Of a stretch of DNA of 64,000 nt, positions 44,823-57,760 are shown in pieces (within the stretch, counting starts at the first letter, position 1; each line of letters opens with the position of its first letter). The stretch comes from Shinella daejeonensis. Its GTDB lineage: Bacteria; Pseudomonadota; Alphaproteobacteria; Rhizobiales; Rhizobiaceae. A model generated the notes under the pieces. That model was not told the origin of the DNA. It worked only from the letters and a program-made list of their open reading frames with translations, and searched no databases. Both the position numbers and the translations under genes were made by a program. Location of the stretch: NCBI RefSeq assembly GCF_024281235.1, contig NZ_JAHWXY010000002.1:124001-188000 (forward strand), in the 5' to 3' direction.

Positions 44823-45100
44823 TCGATCACCTCGCCGCGCATCAGGAATTTGGCGAGCGCCACCGTCGAGACGAAACCCAGCATGCCGATGATCAGCGAC
44901 GCCTCGAAATAGATCGTGTGGCCCGAACGGATGCCGAACACCATCAGCAGCAACATCGAACATACGTAGAGCGCGTCGAGCGCCAGCACGCGATCCTGCG
45001 CGCGCGGGCCACGGAACATGCGCACCATCGCCAGCCACATGGCGACAACCAGAAAAACCTGTGCGATGACGACAGAGCAGGCAAGGATGACGTGGCTCAT
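44819..45100 (-). CDS. phaF: K+/H+ antiporter subunit F
   Basis: 93 residues from the ATG at 45100, which overlaps the phaE stop as ATGA; the reported longer frame to 45154 lies within phaE. Three helices and the motif RMFRGPRAQDRVLALDALYV are typical of PhaF/MnhF. Confidence 0.93.
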   Translation of the reverse strand: MSHVILACSVVIAQVFLVVAMWLAMVRMFRGPRAQDRVLALDALYVCSMLLLMVFGIRSGHTIYFEASLIIGMLGFVSTVALAKFLMRGEVIE

Positions 45101-45573
45101 TCGAAAATCTCCACCAACAGCTTTTCGTAACGATTCTTGATCAGGTCCACCCACCCGTCTTCATCCACGAGGTCGAAGACGTGGATGAGCACCGTCCCGC
45201 CACCGGAATTATATTCCATCCAGGCCGTCCCCGGCGTGCTCGTGATGATGACCGCCAGCACGGCAAGACCGGTCGGATCGCGCAGTTCCAGCGGGATCGC
45301 CACGAAGCCGGAATGGCGCTTTTCGCGATGTCCGCCAAGCAGGATCCAGACGACGGCGGCATTCGACCGCACGATATCGTAGAGCACGATCCAGACGAGC
45401 TTCGGCAACAGATACCAGCCCCGCAGACGAGGCTTGGACGGCCGCATGGAAGCCATCGCCCAGGAGGCGACGACCGAAACGATGCCGCCGACGATAAGCT
45501 GACCGAAGGTGAAGCCGTTGAGGGCAAGCCACATGATCAGGAGCGAGAGACTGAGAAGCGGATAGGGAAGCAT
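45097..45573 (-). CDS. phaE: K+/H+ antiporter subunit E
   Basis: 158 residues. Two N-terminal helices (LLSLSLLIMWLALNGF) are followed by RGWYLLPKLVWIVLYDIVRSN and TPGTAWMEYNSGGGTVLIHVFDL, which are characteristic of PhaE/MnhE. It starts just after the phaD stop. Confidence 0.93.
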   Translation of the reverse strand: MLPYPLLSLSLLIMWLALNGFTFGQLIVGGIVSVVASWAMASMRPSKPRLRGWYLLPKLVWIVLYDIVRSNAAVVWILLGGHREKRHSGFVAIPLELRDPTGLAVLAVIITSTPGTAWMEYNSGGGTVLIHVFDLVDEDGWVDLIKNRYEKLLVEIFE

Positions 45574-45574
45574 G

Positions 45575-47224
45575 TCAGATCCCCTCTTCCGTCACCGTCG
45601 CACCGACCGGCGTTTGCGCCGGTTGACCGGCGCGGCGCGCATCCATCACCGCATCGATATAGAGCGTGGGCCGGGCCAGCCGCTCGACCGTCGCCTCCAT
45701 ATAGCGCATGACCGGACCGGCCTGCACCGTTAGGACGAGCGTTACCGCGACGAGCAGCAGCACCGGTGCCATTTCCACCACCAGCACGCGAGGCACCGTT
45801 CCCTCCATCGACGCCCAGAAGGTACGGATGCCGGCACGGGTCATGGAGATGAGCGCGGCCAGGCCGGACAGGATCAACAACGCGACGATAAGCCAGACGG
45901 ACAGGGAGATGCCGACGGCATTCGAAGCATTCACGCCGATCATGCCGGTCAACATGGCGAATTTCGCGATGAACCCGGAAAGCGGCGGCAGTCCGGAAAG
46001 CAGGATACCGATCGCGGCGAAGCAGGTGCCGAGCATGGCGATGGTCGCGGGCATGGTGACGCCGATCTCGGTTTCTTCTTCCTCTTCATCGGCGTCGCCA
46101 TAGGCTTCCATCGTCACCGCAAGAACGGTCGCGCCGGCATCCTGTCCGCGCTCGACCAGTTCGATCAGCATGAAGAAGGCGCCGAGCGTCAGCGTGGAAC
46201 TGACCAGATAGAAAAGCGCGCCCGCCGTCACCACCCCGTTGCCGAGACCCAGCACCGCAAGCAGCGTCCCGGAGGAGACCAGAACGGAATAGCTGGCAAG
46301 CCGCCCGAGGGCCTGCGAGGCGAGAACCCCGATGGTGCCGAACAGAATGGTCGCCATGCCGCCGTAAAGCAGCACGTTGAGGCCGAACCCGGCGGACGAG
46401 CCTTCCCCGAACACCAGCAGCGAAAGGCGCAGGATGACATAGATGCCGACTTTGCTCATGATCGCGAAGATGCCGGCGACAGGAGCGGAGGCGGCGCTAT
46501 AGGCGGCCGGAAGCCAGAAGTTCAGCGGCCACATGCCCGCCTTGACCAGGAAGGCCACGCCGAGCACGCCCGCGCCTGCTTCCAGCAGCATCCGCCGGTC
46601 CGGATCGAGGTCGGCGATACGCAACGCGAGGTCGGCCATGTTGAGCGTGCCGACGGAGCCGTAGATCGTGCTGACGCCGATCAGGAAGCAAAGCGCGCCG
46701 ACCAGATTGACGACGATGTAATGCATGCCGGCCTTGACGCGCATCGATCCCGAACCATGCATCAGCAAACCGTAGGAGGCGGCCAGCATGACTTCGAAGA
46801 AAACGAAGAGATTGAAGAGGTCTCCCGTCAGGAAGGCGCCGTTCAGCCCCATCAGCAGGAGTTGGAACAGGGAATGGAAATGCGCGCCCGCGGCATGCCA
46901 GCGGGCAAGCGAAAAGACCAGCGCGGGAATGGCGAGAACCGATGTCAGGACCAGCATCAGCGCCGAGAGCTGGTCGGCGACCAGCACAATTCCGAAGGGC
47001 GCCGCCCAGTTGCCAAGCAGGTAGACACCGTCGAACCCACCCTGCGGACCCTTTATCGCCAGCCGGAACAGGGCGATCGCGACCCCCACCAGCAGGACGC
47101 AGGAAACGACGCTGATCATCGCCTTCAGCACGCGCCGGCGCTCGTCGAAGAACAGGAGGAGCGCGCCTGCGACAAGCGGGACGAGGATCGGCGCGATGAT
47201 GATATGTCGATACCAGTCGTTCAT
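45575..47224 (-). CDS. phaD: K+/H+ antiporter subunit D (ND5/ND4-like)
   Basis: 549 residues from the ATG at 47224, which overlaps the phaC stop as ATGA. About fourteen helices of the proton-pumping NADH-quinone oxidoreductase M/N type are present. The sequence includes LLMGLNGAFLTGDLFNLFVFFE, with the conserved Glu in the fifth helix, and AGMWPLNFWLPAAYSAASAP, with the conserved Lys near its front. A cytoplasmic acidic insert (YGDADEEEEETEIG) is unusual. The longer open frame upstream is not used. Confidence 0.94.
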   Translation of the reverse strand: MNDWYRHIIIAPILVPLVAGALLLFFDERRRVLKAMISVVSCVLLVGVAIALFRLAIKGPQGGFDGVYLLGNWAAPFGIVLVADQLSALMLVLTSVLAIPALVFSLARWHAAGAHFHSLFQLLLMGLNGAFLTGDLFNLFVFFEVMLAASYGLLMHGSGSMRVKAGMHYIVVNLVGALCFLIGVSTIYGSVGTLNMADLALRIADLDPDRRMLLEAGAGVLGVAFLVKAGMWPLNFWLPAAYSAASAPVAGIFAIMSKVGIYVILRLSLLVFGEGSSAGFGLNVLLYGGMATILFGTIGVLASQALGRLASYSVLVSSGTLLAVLGLGNGVVTAGALFYLVSSTLTLGAFFMLIELVERGQDAGATVLAVTMEAYGDADEEEEETEIGVTMPATIAMLGTCFAAIGILLSGLPPLSGFIAKFAMLTGMIGVNASNAVGISLSVWLIVALLILSGLAALISMTRAGIRTFWASMEGTVPRVLVVEMAPVLLLVAVTLVLTVQAGPVMRYMEATVERLARPTLYIDAVMDARRAGQPAQTPVGATVTEEGI

Positions 47225-56891: not shown

Positions 56892-56990
56892 AAGAAACGT
56901 CGCTGGCCAGCGTTATATTTTCAAAGATACATTGAAGGCGCCAATCCGGCGGAAAGCTGCAATCGTCGGGGAAACAGACGCTGGAAATAG

Positions 56991-57147
56991 AAAAGCCTGC
57001 CGCGGGAGGAGGTGCGGCAGGCTTTCCAAGAGAGCTGAACGGCGATTGGGAGGAGGAGTATCGCCGTTCCCGCAAGCGACCTTTGGGAGGAGGAGTAGGT
57101 CACTTGCTGCATCGAAGCTCTGCGGGAGGAGGTGCATCGCTTCGATG
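56991..57147 (-). ncRNA. Cuckoo-type small RNA array with four CCTCCTCCC loops
   Basis: Four consecutive hairpins, each with CCTCCTCCC in the loop on the minus strand. Stems are 57110-57118/57139-57147, 57072-57082/57097-57107, 57037-57046/57060-57069 and 56992-57003/57014-57025. The four stems differ in sequence while the loops are the same, which shows selection for structure and loop. The last stem (12 bp) runs into TTTTC and so can act as terminator. CUCCUCC-loop hairpins in tandem downstream of DUF1127 genes are the hallmark of cuckoo RNAs such as the CcsR RNAs of Rhodobacter, which are processed from the DUF1127 transcript and act in stress responses. Confidence 0.85.
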
Positions 57148-57285
57148 GCTATGACTTATACCCGACTCTCGCTCAATTAACAGGCATTATTTTGCAAGGC
57201 AGCTATGTGCTATGCGCTTATCGGATAGCTCCTGCATCAAGGCCTCCGTACGGCGGCGGGCGAAAGCCATCGTGTTCGCAGATGC

Positions 57286-57312
57286 AAAAACGCCCGCCTG
57301 GAAGGCGGGCGT
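57286..57312 (-). terminator. Hairpin after the DUF1127 gene
   Basis: ACGCCCGCC (57290-57298) and GGCGGGCGT (57304-57312) form a 9-bp perfect stem, followed on the minus strand by TTTTT. It lies between the DUF1127 stop and the cuckoo array. Either the array has its own promoter in 57148-57285, or read-through past this terminator supplies it. Confidence 0.85.
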
Positions 57313-57345
57313 CAACTCTTTTCCGCAAGGGCGGAGGTCGTTTCG

Positions 57346-57492
57346 TCAGAAGCCGACGGCGGCCCGGGCGACGGACCTGATCTGGGAGCGCTGGATGCCG
57401 ACATCGTCGAGTTCACGAGCGCTCATGCGGCTCAGCTCAGCGACGGTCTGACGGTATTTGCGCCAATTGTTGAAGGAACGTGCCATGTTCAT
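57346..57492 (-). CDS. DUF1127 small protein
   Basis: 48 residues, starting MNMARSFNNWRKYRQTVAEL and continuing SRMSARELDDVGIQRSQIRS. This is the DUF1127 pattern: an Arg-rich helix followed by MS-REL-DIGI-R. An AAGGGGA ribosome site lies 5 bases before the ATG. In Rhodobacter the DUF1127 protein CcaF1 is an RNA-binding protein that affects the maturation of the cuckoo RNAs encoded downstream. The same gene order here makes such a link likely. Confidence 0.9.
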   Translation of the reverse strand: MNMARSFNNWRKYRQTVAELSRMSARELDDVGIQRSQIRSVARAAVGF

Positions 57493-57567
57493 GATGATCC
57501 CCTTTCCTGAGGTTATCAGTTCGGCACCGATCCGTGGCGCCGCGTCTTTCGATGACCTTCATATAGG

Positions 57568-57589
57568 CTTTATGTTGCACTGCATAAAG
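57568..57589. promoter_or_regulatory. Inverted repeat upstream of the DUF1127 gene
   Basis: CTTTATG (57568-57574) and CATAAAG (57583-57589) are separated by 8 bases, about 76 bases before the DUF1127 start. This could be a regulator site or part of a stress promoter. The 268-base gap to the next gene also has to hold the promoter of the dehydrogenase at 57761. I cannot assign a sigma-factor type. Confidence 0.35.
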
Positions 57590-57760
57590 GCCATTTGCGA
57601 CAACGCACCCATGCGCCTAGCGCATAGATCGCCACTCCATGCCTGGCGCATCTTCGCTCCGCCGCTGTCGGAACTGGTCACGCGCTAGTCGCAGACAGGC
57701 TTCAACCGTCATCCGGCAGGAAATAATATCGGACCACATATTCCATCGGGGTTCCAAGCA

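Follow-up and report, generated by a model that had tools for sequence, protein, structure and literature searches.

We found that the minus strand of the window, a 64,000-nucleotide stretch of Shinella daejeonensis DNA, carries behind a DUF1127 gene a real, conserved and ordinary member of the ar14/cuckoo small RNA (sRNA) family, of the SmelA099 type, and that gene and array are most likely co-controlled rather than co-transcribed. It is quite likely that the array gives rise to a trans-acting sRNA of ∼160 nt, which would have its own promoter, block the ribosome sites of mRNAs with anti-Shine-Dalgarno (aSD) loops and be controlled by LsrB together with the DUF1127 gene. What the first-pass annotation had singled out as an oddity now has its place in a well-described sRNA family, and a 5' end, a length and a regulator can be predicted for it. 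The array family is already known, and the matched pair of LsrB-type promoters may be the new part. Coordinates are collected in Table 1.

Table 1. Features of the DUF1127 gene and the hairpin array, in window coordinates
Feature	Position	Strand	Remarks
LsrB/VtlR-type box GCATGGGTGCGTT, DUF1127 promoter	57602..57614	-	Perfect GCAT-N3-TG-N3-T match; in 21/21 window-type orthologs
Putative -10 CTATAT, DUF1127 promoter	57561..57566	-	32 nt after the 16-nt stretch 57614-57599
DUF1127 gene, 48 aa	57346..57492	-	Pfam PF06568, 61.6 bits, cut-off 23.3
Intrinsic terminator hairpin, gene/array gap	57289..57313	-	-21.8 kcal/mol, z = -3.6
LsrB/VtlR-type box ACATAGCTGCCTT, array promoter	57196..57208	-	One mismatch in the window copy
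Putative -10 TATAAG, array promoter	57155..57160	-	32 nt after the 16-nt stretch 57208-57193
Hairpin 1	57109..57149	-	Loop motif 57132-57124; outside the Rfam ar14 match
Hairpin 2	57072..57107	-	Loop motif 57093-57085
Hairpin 3	57037..57069	-	Loop motif 57056-57048
Hairpin 4 and terminator	56990..57027	-	Loop motif 57012-57004; invariance precludes a covariation test
Predicted 160-nt ar14/SmelA099-type sRNA	56988..57147	-	5' end from alignment to the published SmelA099 end

The array consists of four minus-strand hairpins within positions 57149 to 56990, with stems that differ and loops that are identical (CCTCCTCCC). This motif occurs four times in the 64-kb window, always on the minus strand and within 57004 to 57132; shuffled windows contained a mean of 0.68 copies and none (0/100) reached four. 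The minus-strand fold of 57155 to 56980 reached -78.4 kcal/mol against a shuffle mean of -45.9 (z = -8.2, with 0/200 shuffles as good). Motif count and fold thus confirm the four hairpins with differing stems and a common loop that the first-pass annotation had described, and its view that the last hairpin doubles as terminator proved correct as well, since hairpin 4 is GC rich and runs into TTTT.

The same annotation had proposed a cuckoo-type sRNA with aSD loops, which is supported by a match to the Rfam family ar14 (RF02344) at positions 57113 to 56988 (107.2 bits for a cut-off of 58.8, covering positions 1 to 123 of the 123 in the model). The ar14 model comprises three hairpins, and the 5'-most fourth hairpin of the window falls outside it. 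The array displays the several hairpins, variable stems and identical CCUCCUCCC loops by which ar14/cuckoo RNAs are recognized, and also the four hairpins of the SmelA099 subtype. The CcsR1 model (RF02791) scored 31.2 bits at permissive settings, below its cut-off of 65.3. In their 2011 article, Reinkensmeier et al. described SmelA075 with three hairpins and SmelA099 with four, all with CCUCCUCCC loops, and suggested that they form one family (PMC3927594). SmelA099 (RFMSmelA099) was reported as a 160-nt RNA from the minus strand of Sinorhizobium meliloti pSymA, positions 1328175 to 1328334 (PMC2873474). We retrieved these 160 letters from pSymA and found four loop motifs in them. After the first A of SmelA099, 36 bases are identical to hairpin 1 of the window, and its hairpin 4 equals that of the window except for an extra A and an extra T at the base. 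An LsrB-like stretch lies 32 nt before its -10 element (TATAGT), the same spacing as in the window; the two loci differ in that no DUF1127 gene was found in 2.8 kb around SmelA099. Judging from the alignment, the array is a homolog of this published S. meliloti sRNA, and the nearest relative that we found is SmelA099/ar14 and not the CcsR RNAs of Rhodobacter. The alignment predicts an RNA start at 57147 or 57146, and a transcript from 57147 to 56988 would have 160 nt. NfeR1 (Smr14C2), another S. meliloti RNA, shares the family model match and the aSD loops but has three hairpins, the window having a fourth on the 5' side, and RSs0680a of Rhodobacter, as described in PMC3927594, has two hairpins for the four of the window.

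We then looked into the conservation of the locus. A 521-base stretch covering gene and array matched over query positions 1 to 511 or more in all 21 Shinella genomes, our own included, with 75 to 82% identity in the 20 others; many of the rows compared here and below are orthologs, so that counts are not independent. Gene, array and -10 region are kept in the alignment of these genomes, as is a block ∼50 to 60 nt before the array begins, and the region between the terminator and the promoter block varies freely. Four loop motifs were clustered in each of the 21 genomes, one of which (L043) has an extra motif elsewhere. The suggestion that four copies are notable therefore fell, as this number is the rule in the Shinella orthologs (21/21) and had been published for SmelA099 in 2010-2011 (PMC2873474, PMC3927594). 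A class-wide scan of 385 genomes with a pattern of three spaced motifs matched only the window's own genome, a result of little weight for the question of spread because its family was represented in the sample by this genome alone. No relatives of the array were found among 50,697 phage records.

Compensatory stem changes among relatives had been named by the first-pass annotation as the touchstone of the structure. We looked for them in 42 distinct four-motif arrays aligned on the structure of the window and found them: both sides had changed in 25 of the 48 pairs (shuffle mean, 12.8; 0/500 shuffles reached 25), and 92.6% of the cells were paired, a value that dropped to 31.6 to 48.6% when the partners were slid. 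Many of the 42 rows lacked pairing at two outer positions of hairpin 1 and at several of hairpin 2. Hairpins 1 to 3 covary; hairpin 4 is not countable, since it hardly varies and since 21 of the 42 rows are named loci retrieved by an exact match to it. Tested without an alignment, 172 distinct hairpins, related ones included, formed a longest stem of 9.85 bp on average with their own arms versus 5.55 bp with swapped arms.

The presence of a DUF1127 gene just upstream of the array and of a separate terminator between the two was also confirmed (Table 1). The protein has 48 aa in all 21 orthologs, from which we built the HMM used to find DUF1127 genes, and NCBIfam gave no match for the window's protein. 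In 21/21 orthologs, the gene is followed by a hairpin of high stability, between -18.9 and -24.1 kcal/mol, the T-run behind it being broken in two of them (L046 and L050). As at the CIN1/ccaF1-CcsR locus, the gene adjoins the array, and it does so in all 21 Shinella genomes.

A scan of positions 56900 to 57760 with the sigma-70 consensus yielded no promoter-like site, and the promoter emerged only from the comparison of relatives. Arrays with and without DUF1127 neighbors have in common a GCATAGCTGCACTGCA-like block, with TATNNT 32 nt further downstream. The box proposed for VtlR/LsrB is GCAT-N3-TG-N3-T (PMC7486931); in S. meliloti, abcR1 is reported to have it at -61 to -49 (PMC8844928). Of 50 distinct four-motif arrays, 48 have this published box upstream (shuffles, 0.56%), nearly always starting 73 to 79 bases before the first loop motif, i.e., near -60. 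The two exceptions are the window's own copy and L060. The box was also present in 47/86 DUF1127 upstream regions (0.62% in shuffles), including those of all 21 window-type orthologs, and before 7 of 24 distinct three-motif arrays; with these last two proportions, it is no rule for the whole family. In the array box of the window, the first G is replaced by A to give ACAT, against GCAT in the other 20 Shinella orthologs, and the -10 element of the window's array, TATAAG, has an extra A. Given this mismatch and this -10, activation of the array by LsrB could be weaker or lost in the window's strain.

For the array promoter, the pattern GCATRGCTGNNNTGCR-N(31-33)-TATNNT occurred at 28 places in 61 whole genomes (none for the reversed control pattern), 25 of them just upstream of ar14 matches, namely in the 20 Shinella orthologs, themselves the main source of the pattern, and at G017:C3, G007:C3, G034:C34, G034:C41 and G029:C46. 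Three places lay away from ar14 matches (G033, G047 and G060), and the window's own genome had none, owing to the ACAT of its array box. For the DUF1127 promoter, GCATRGGTGNNNTNC with CTATA behind it occurred at 26 places in 41 genomes (control, 0): 14 before window-type DUF1127 orthologs, 1 before another DUF1127 gene, 10 upstream of the second ar14 match of the other locus, and 1 elsewhere (G042). An in-house box combined with a strict TATNNT at 32 nt was passed by 38/46 four-motif and 0/24 three-motif arrays, the window copy failing. At a score of at least 12, the in-house 16-mer was found in 26/86 DUF1127 upstream regions versus 28/1,720 shuffles and 159/3,000 random locus stretches; we used the published consensus for the counts because the 16-mer also turned up in such random stretches. 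In G033 (L124, reverse strand, ∼430 to 740), the array-type promoter pattern precedes an arginine-rich 57-aa open reading frame, which had no Pfam match at E values up to 1, and no CCTCCTCCC was found in the 1 kb retrieved.

The first-pass annotation had likened the locus to CcaF1-CcsR of Rhodobacter. The neighbors and the type of RNA stand, as CcsR1-4 of Rhodobacter sphaeroides also have CCUCCUCCC loops and a DUF1127 gene upstream, but a single transcription unit is probably not formed here. In R. sphaeroides, ccaF1 and CcsR are described as co-transcribed in a single operon that has an RpoHI/RpoHII promoter, with processing by RNase E (PMC10253847). A true operon of this kind, in which RNase E would process a joint RNA with the help of the DUF1127 protein, is unlikely in Shinella, even though gene order and RNA kind are shared, the association has been named the CIN1 locus (PMC10253847) and read-through of the terminator is possible. 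The terminator stem follows the DUF1127 gene in every ortholog, the array promoter pattern is kept in 20/20 other Shinella genomes, and the same promoter precedes arrays without a DUF1127 gene seen alongside, that of SmelA099 included. The conserved terminator and the second conserved promoter region argue for two transcription units.

The linkage of array and gene was evaluated in 45 named loci. A same-strand DUF1127 gene lay upstream of the array in 13 (11 of them from Shinella) and an opposite-strand one nearby in 3; in the other 29, no DUF1127 gene was seen in the available stretch, and some stretches (L081, L078) end close to the array. On plasmids, 156/569 matching records contained 80% or more of the combined gene and array in one place, and 460/558 contained 80% or more of just the array, so that the array is more widespread than the pair. 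Near DUF1127 genes of other genera, we also observed tandem arrays of 3+3 or 3+2 motifs, ∼80 to 330 bases apart (L026, L036 and L033).

LsrB is the candidate regulator of both units. AbcR sRNAs (ar15, RF02345) belong to a different RNA family but have the LsrB/VtlR box upstream in common with the array. For two of the three AbcR matches in the window's genome (C11:718023 and C22:362837), the box begins 61 bases before the match. Upstream of the AbcR pair lies a gene for a 302-aa LysR-type protein. Among solved structures, 9hh1 is the closest to this protein in sequence (E = 2.7e-180), and its entry says no more than LysR family; from the position of the gene, we infer that it is the lsrB/vtlR ortholog. 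Brucella VtlR is reported to activate AbcR2 and three DUF1127 proteins (PMC12595884), and NfeR1, the S. meliloti ar14 sRNA, is described as LsrB activated and as silencing ntrB via its aSD loops (PMC10746234). The LsrB site given for NfeR1, TGCA-N6-GCAT at -72 to -60, differs from the array box in sequence and place (PMC10746234). As far as the sources were accessible, we saw no mention in the literature that LsrB controls SmelA099-type arrays; the 2021 article of Eisfeld et al., which deals with LsrB and Agrobacterium tumefaciens small RNAs, may contain one.

We propose that LsrB would switch on two adjacent units in S. daejeonensis, a short DUF1127 mRNA that would stop at its own terminator and the 160-nt RNA that would be transcribed from its own promoter. 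Since the four loops copy the aSD end of 16S rRNA (CCUCCU), they could pair with G-rich ribosome-binding sites of mRNAs and block translation, and the four would probably be redundant in action. The leader of ntrB at its likely start, picked from the open frame and uncertain, reads GGGAGAGG, an imperfect partner of the loop. The DUF1127 protein might, for its part, act on the array. A shared LsrB/VtlR box offers a simple candidate reason for the frequent neighborhood of DUF1127 genes and cuckoo RNAs, namely, common control and not a common transcript. Whether the gene and the four-hairpin array of Rhizobiaceae form a two-promoter LsrB/VtlR module that replaces the single RpoH-type operon of Rhodobacter is, in our judgment, evenly balanced. 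The same box at similar spacing would keep both units in one regulon, the protein:RNA ratio could be adjusted, and the array could move with its own promoter, also onto plasmids, and stay in the regulon.

Identical loops on variable stems are likewise a feature of CsrB-type sponges, and the loops might mainly titrate an RNA-binding protein, such as the DUF1127 protein or a CsrA-like factor. The R. sphaeroides DUF1127 protein CcaF1 is indeed reported to bind RNA and to be involved in CcsR maturation (PMC10253847), although the field is split between RNA binding, as for CcaF1, and protein contact, as for the small DUF1127 proteins of A. tumefaciens acting on PhoR (PMC12501420). We hold such sequestration to be very unlikely, as the loop carries the aSD core CCUCCU and lacks GGA, and as mutation of all three NfeR1 loops is reported to abolish ntrB silencing in S. 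meliloti (PMC10746234). A cluster of repeats or terminators without regulatory function, for which nothing speaks beyond the hairpin-rich look, is extremely improbable in view of the Rfam match, the invariant loops on covarying stems, the conserved promoter region and the sequenced homolog.

Regarding the surroundings of the aSD array, an SBP_bac_11 solute-binding protein gene (56849-56076) begins ∼140 bases downstream on the same strand, with transporter permease and ATPase genes next, and read-through from the array could extend into it. The window's genome has five DUF1127 matches in total and two ar14 matches, each with a DUF1127 gene within ∼300 bases. The second ar14 locus (C31, ∼45080 to 46300; L125, 480 to 1700) has three hairpins with variant loops, followed on the same strand by two DUF1127 genes, the first of which has an LsrB-type box (GCATAGCTGATCT) upstream.
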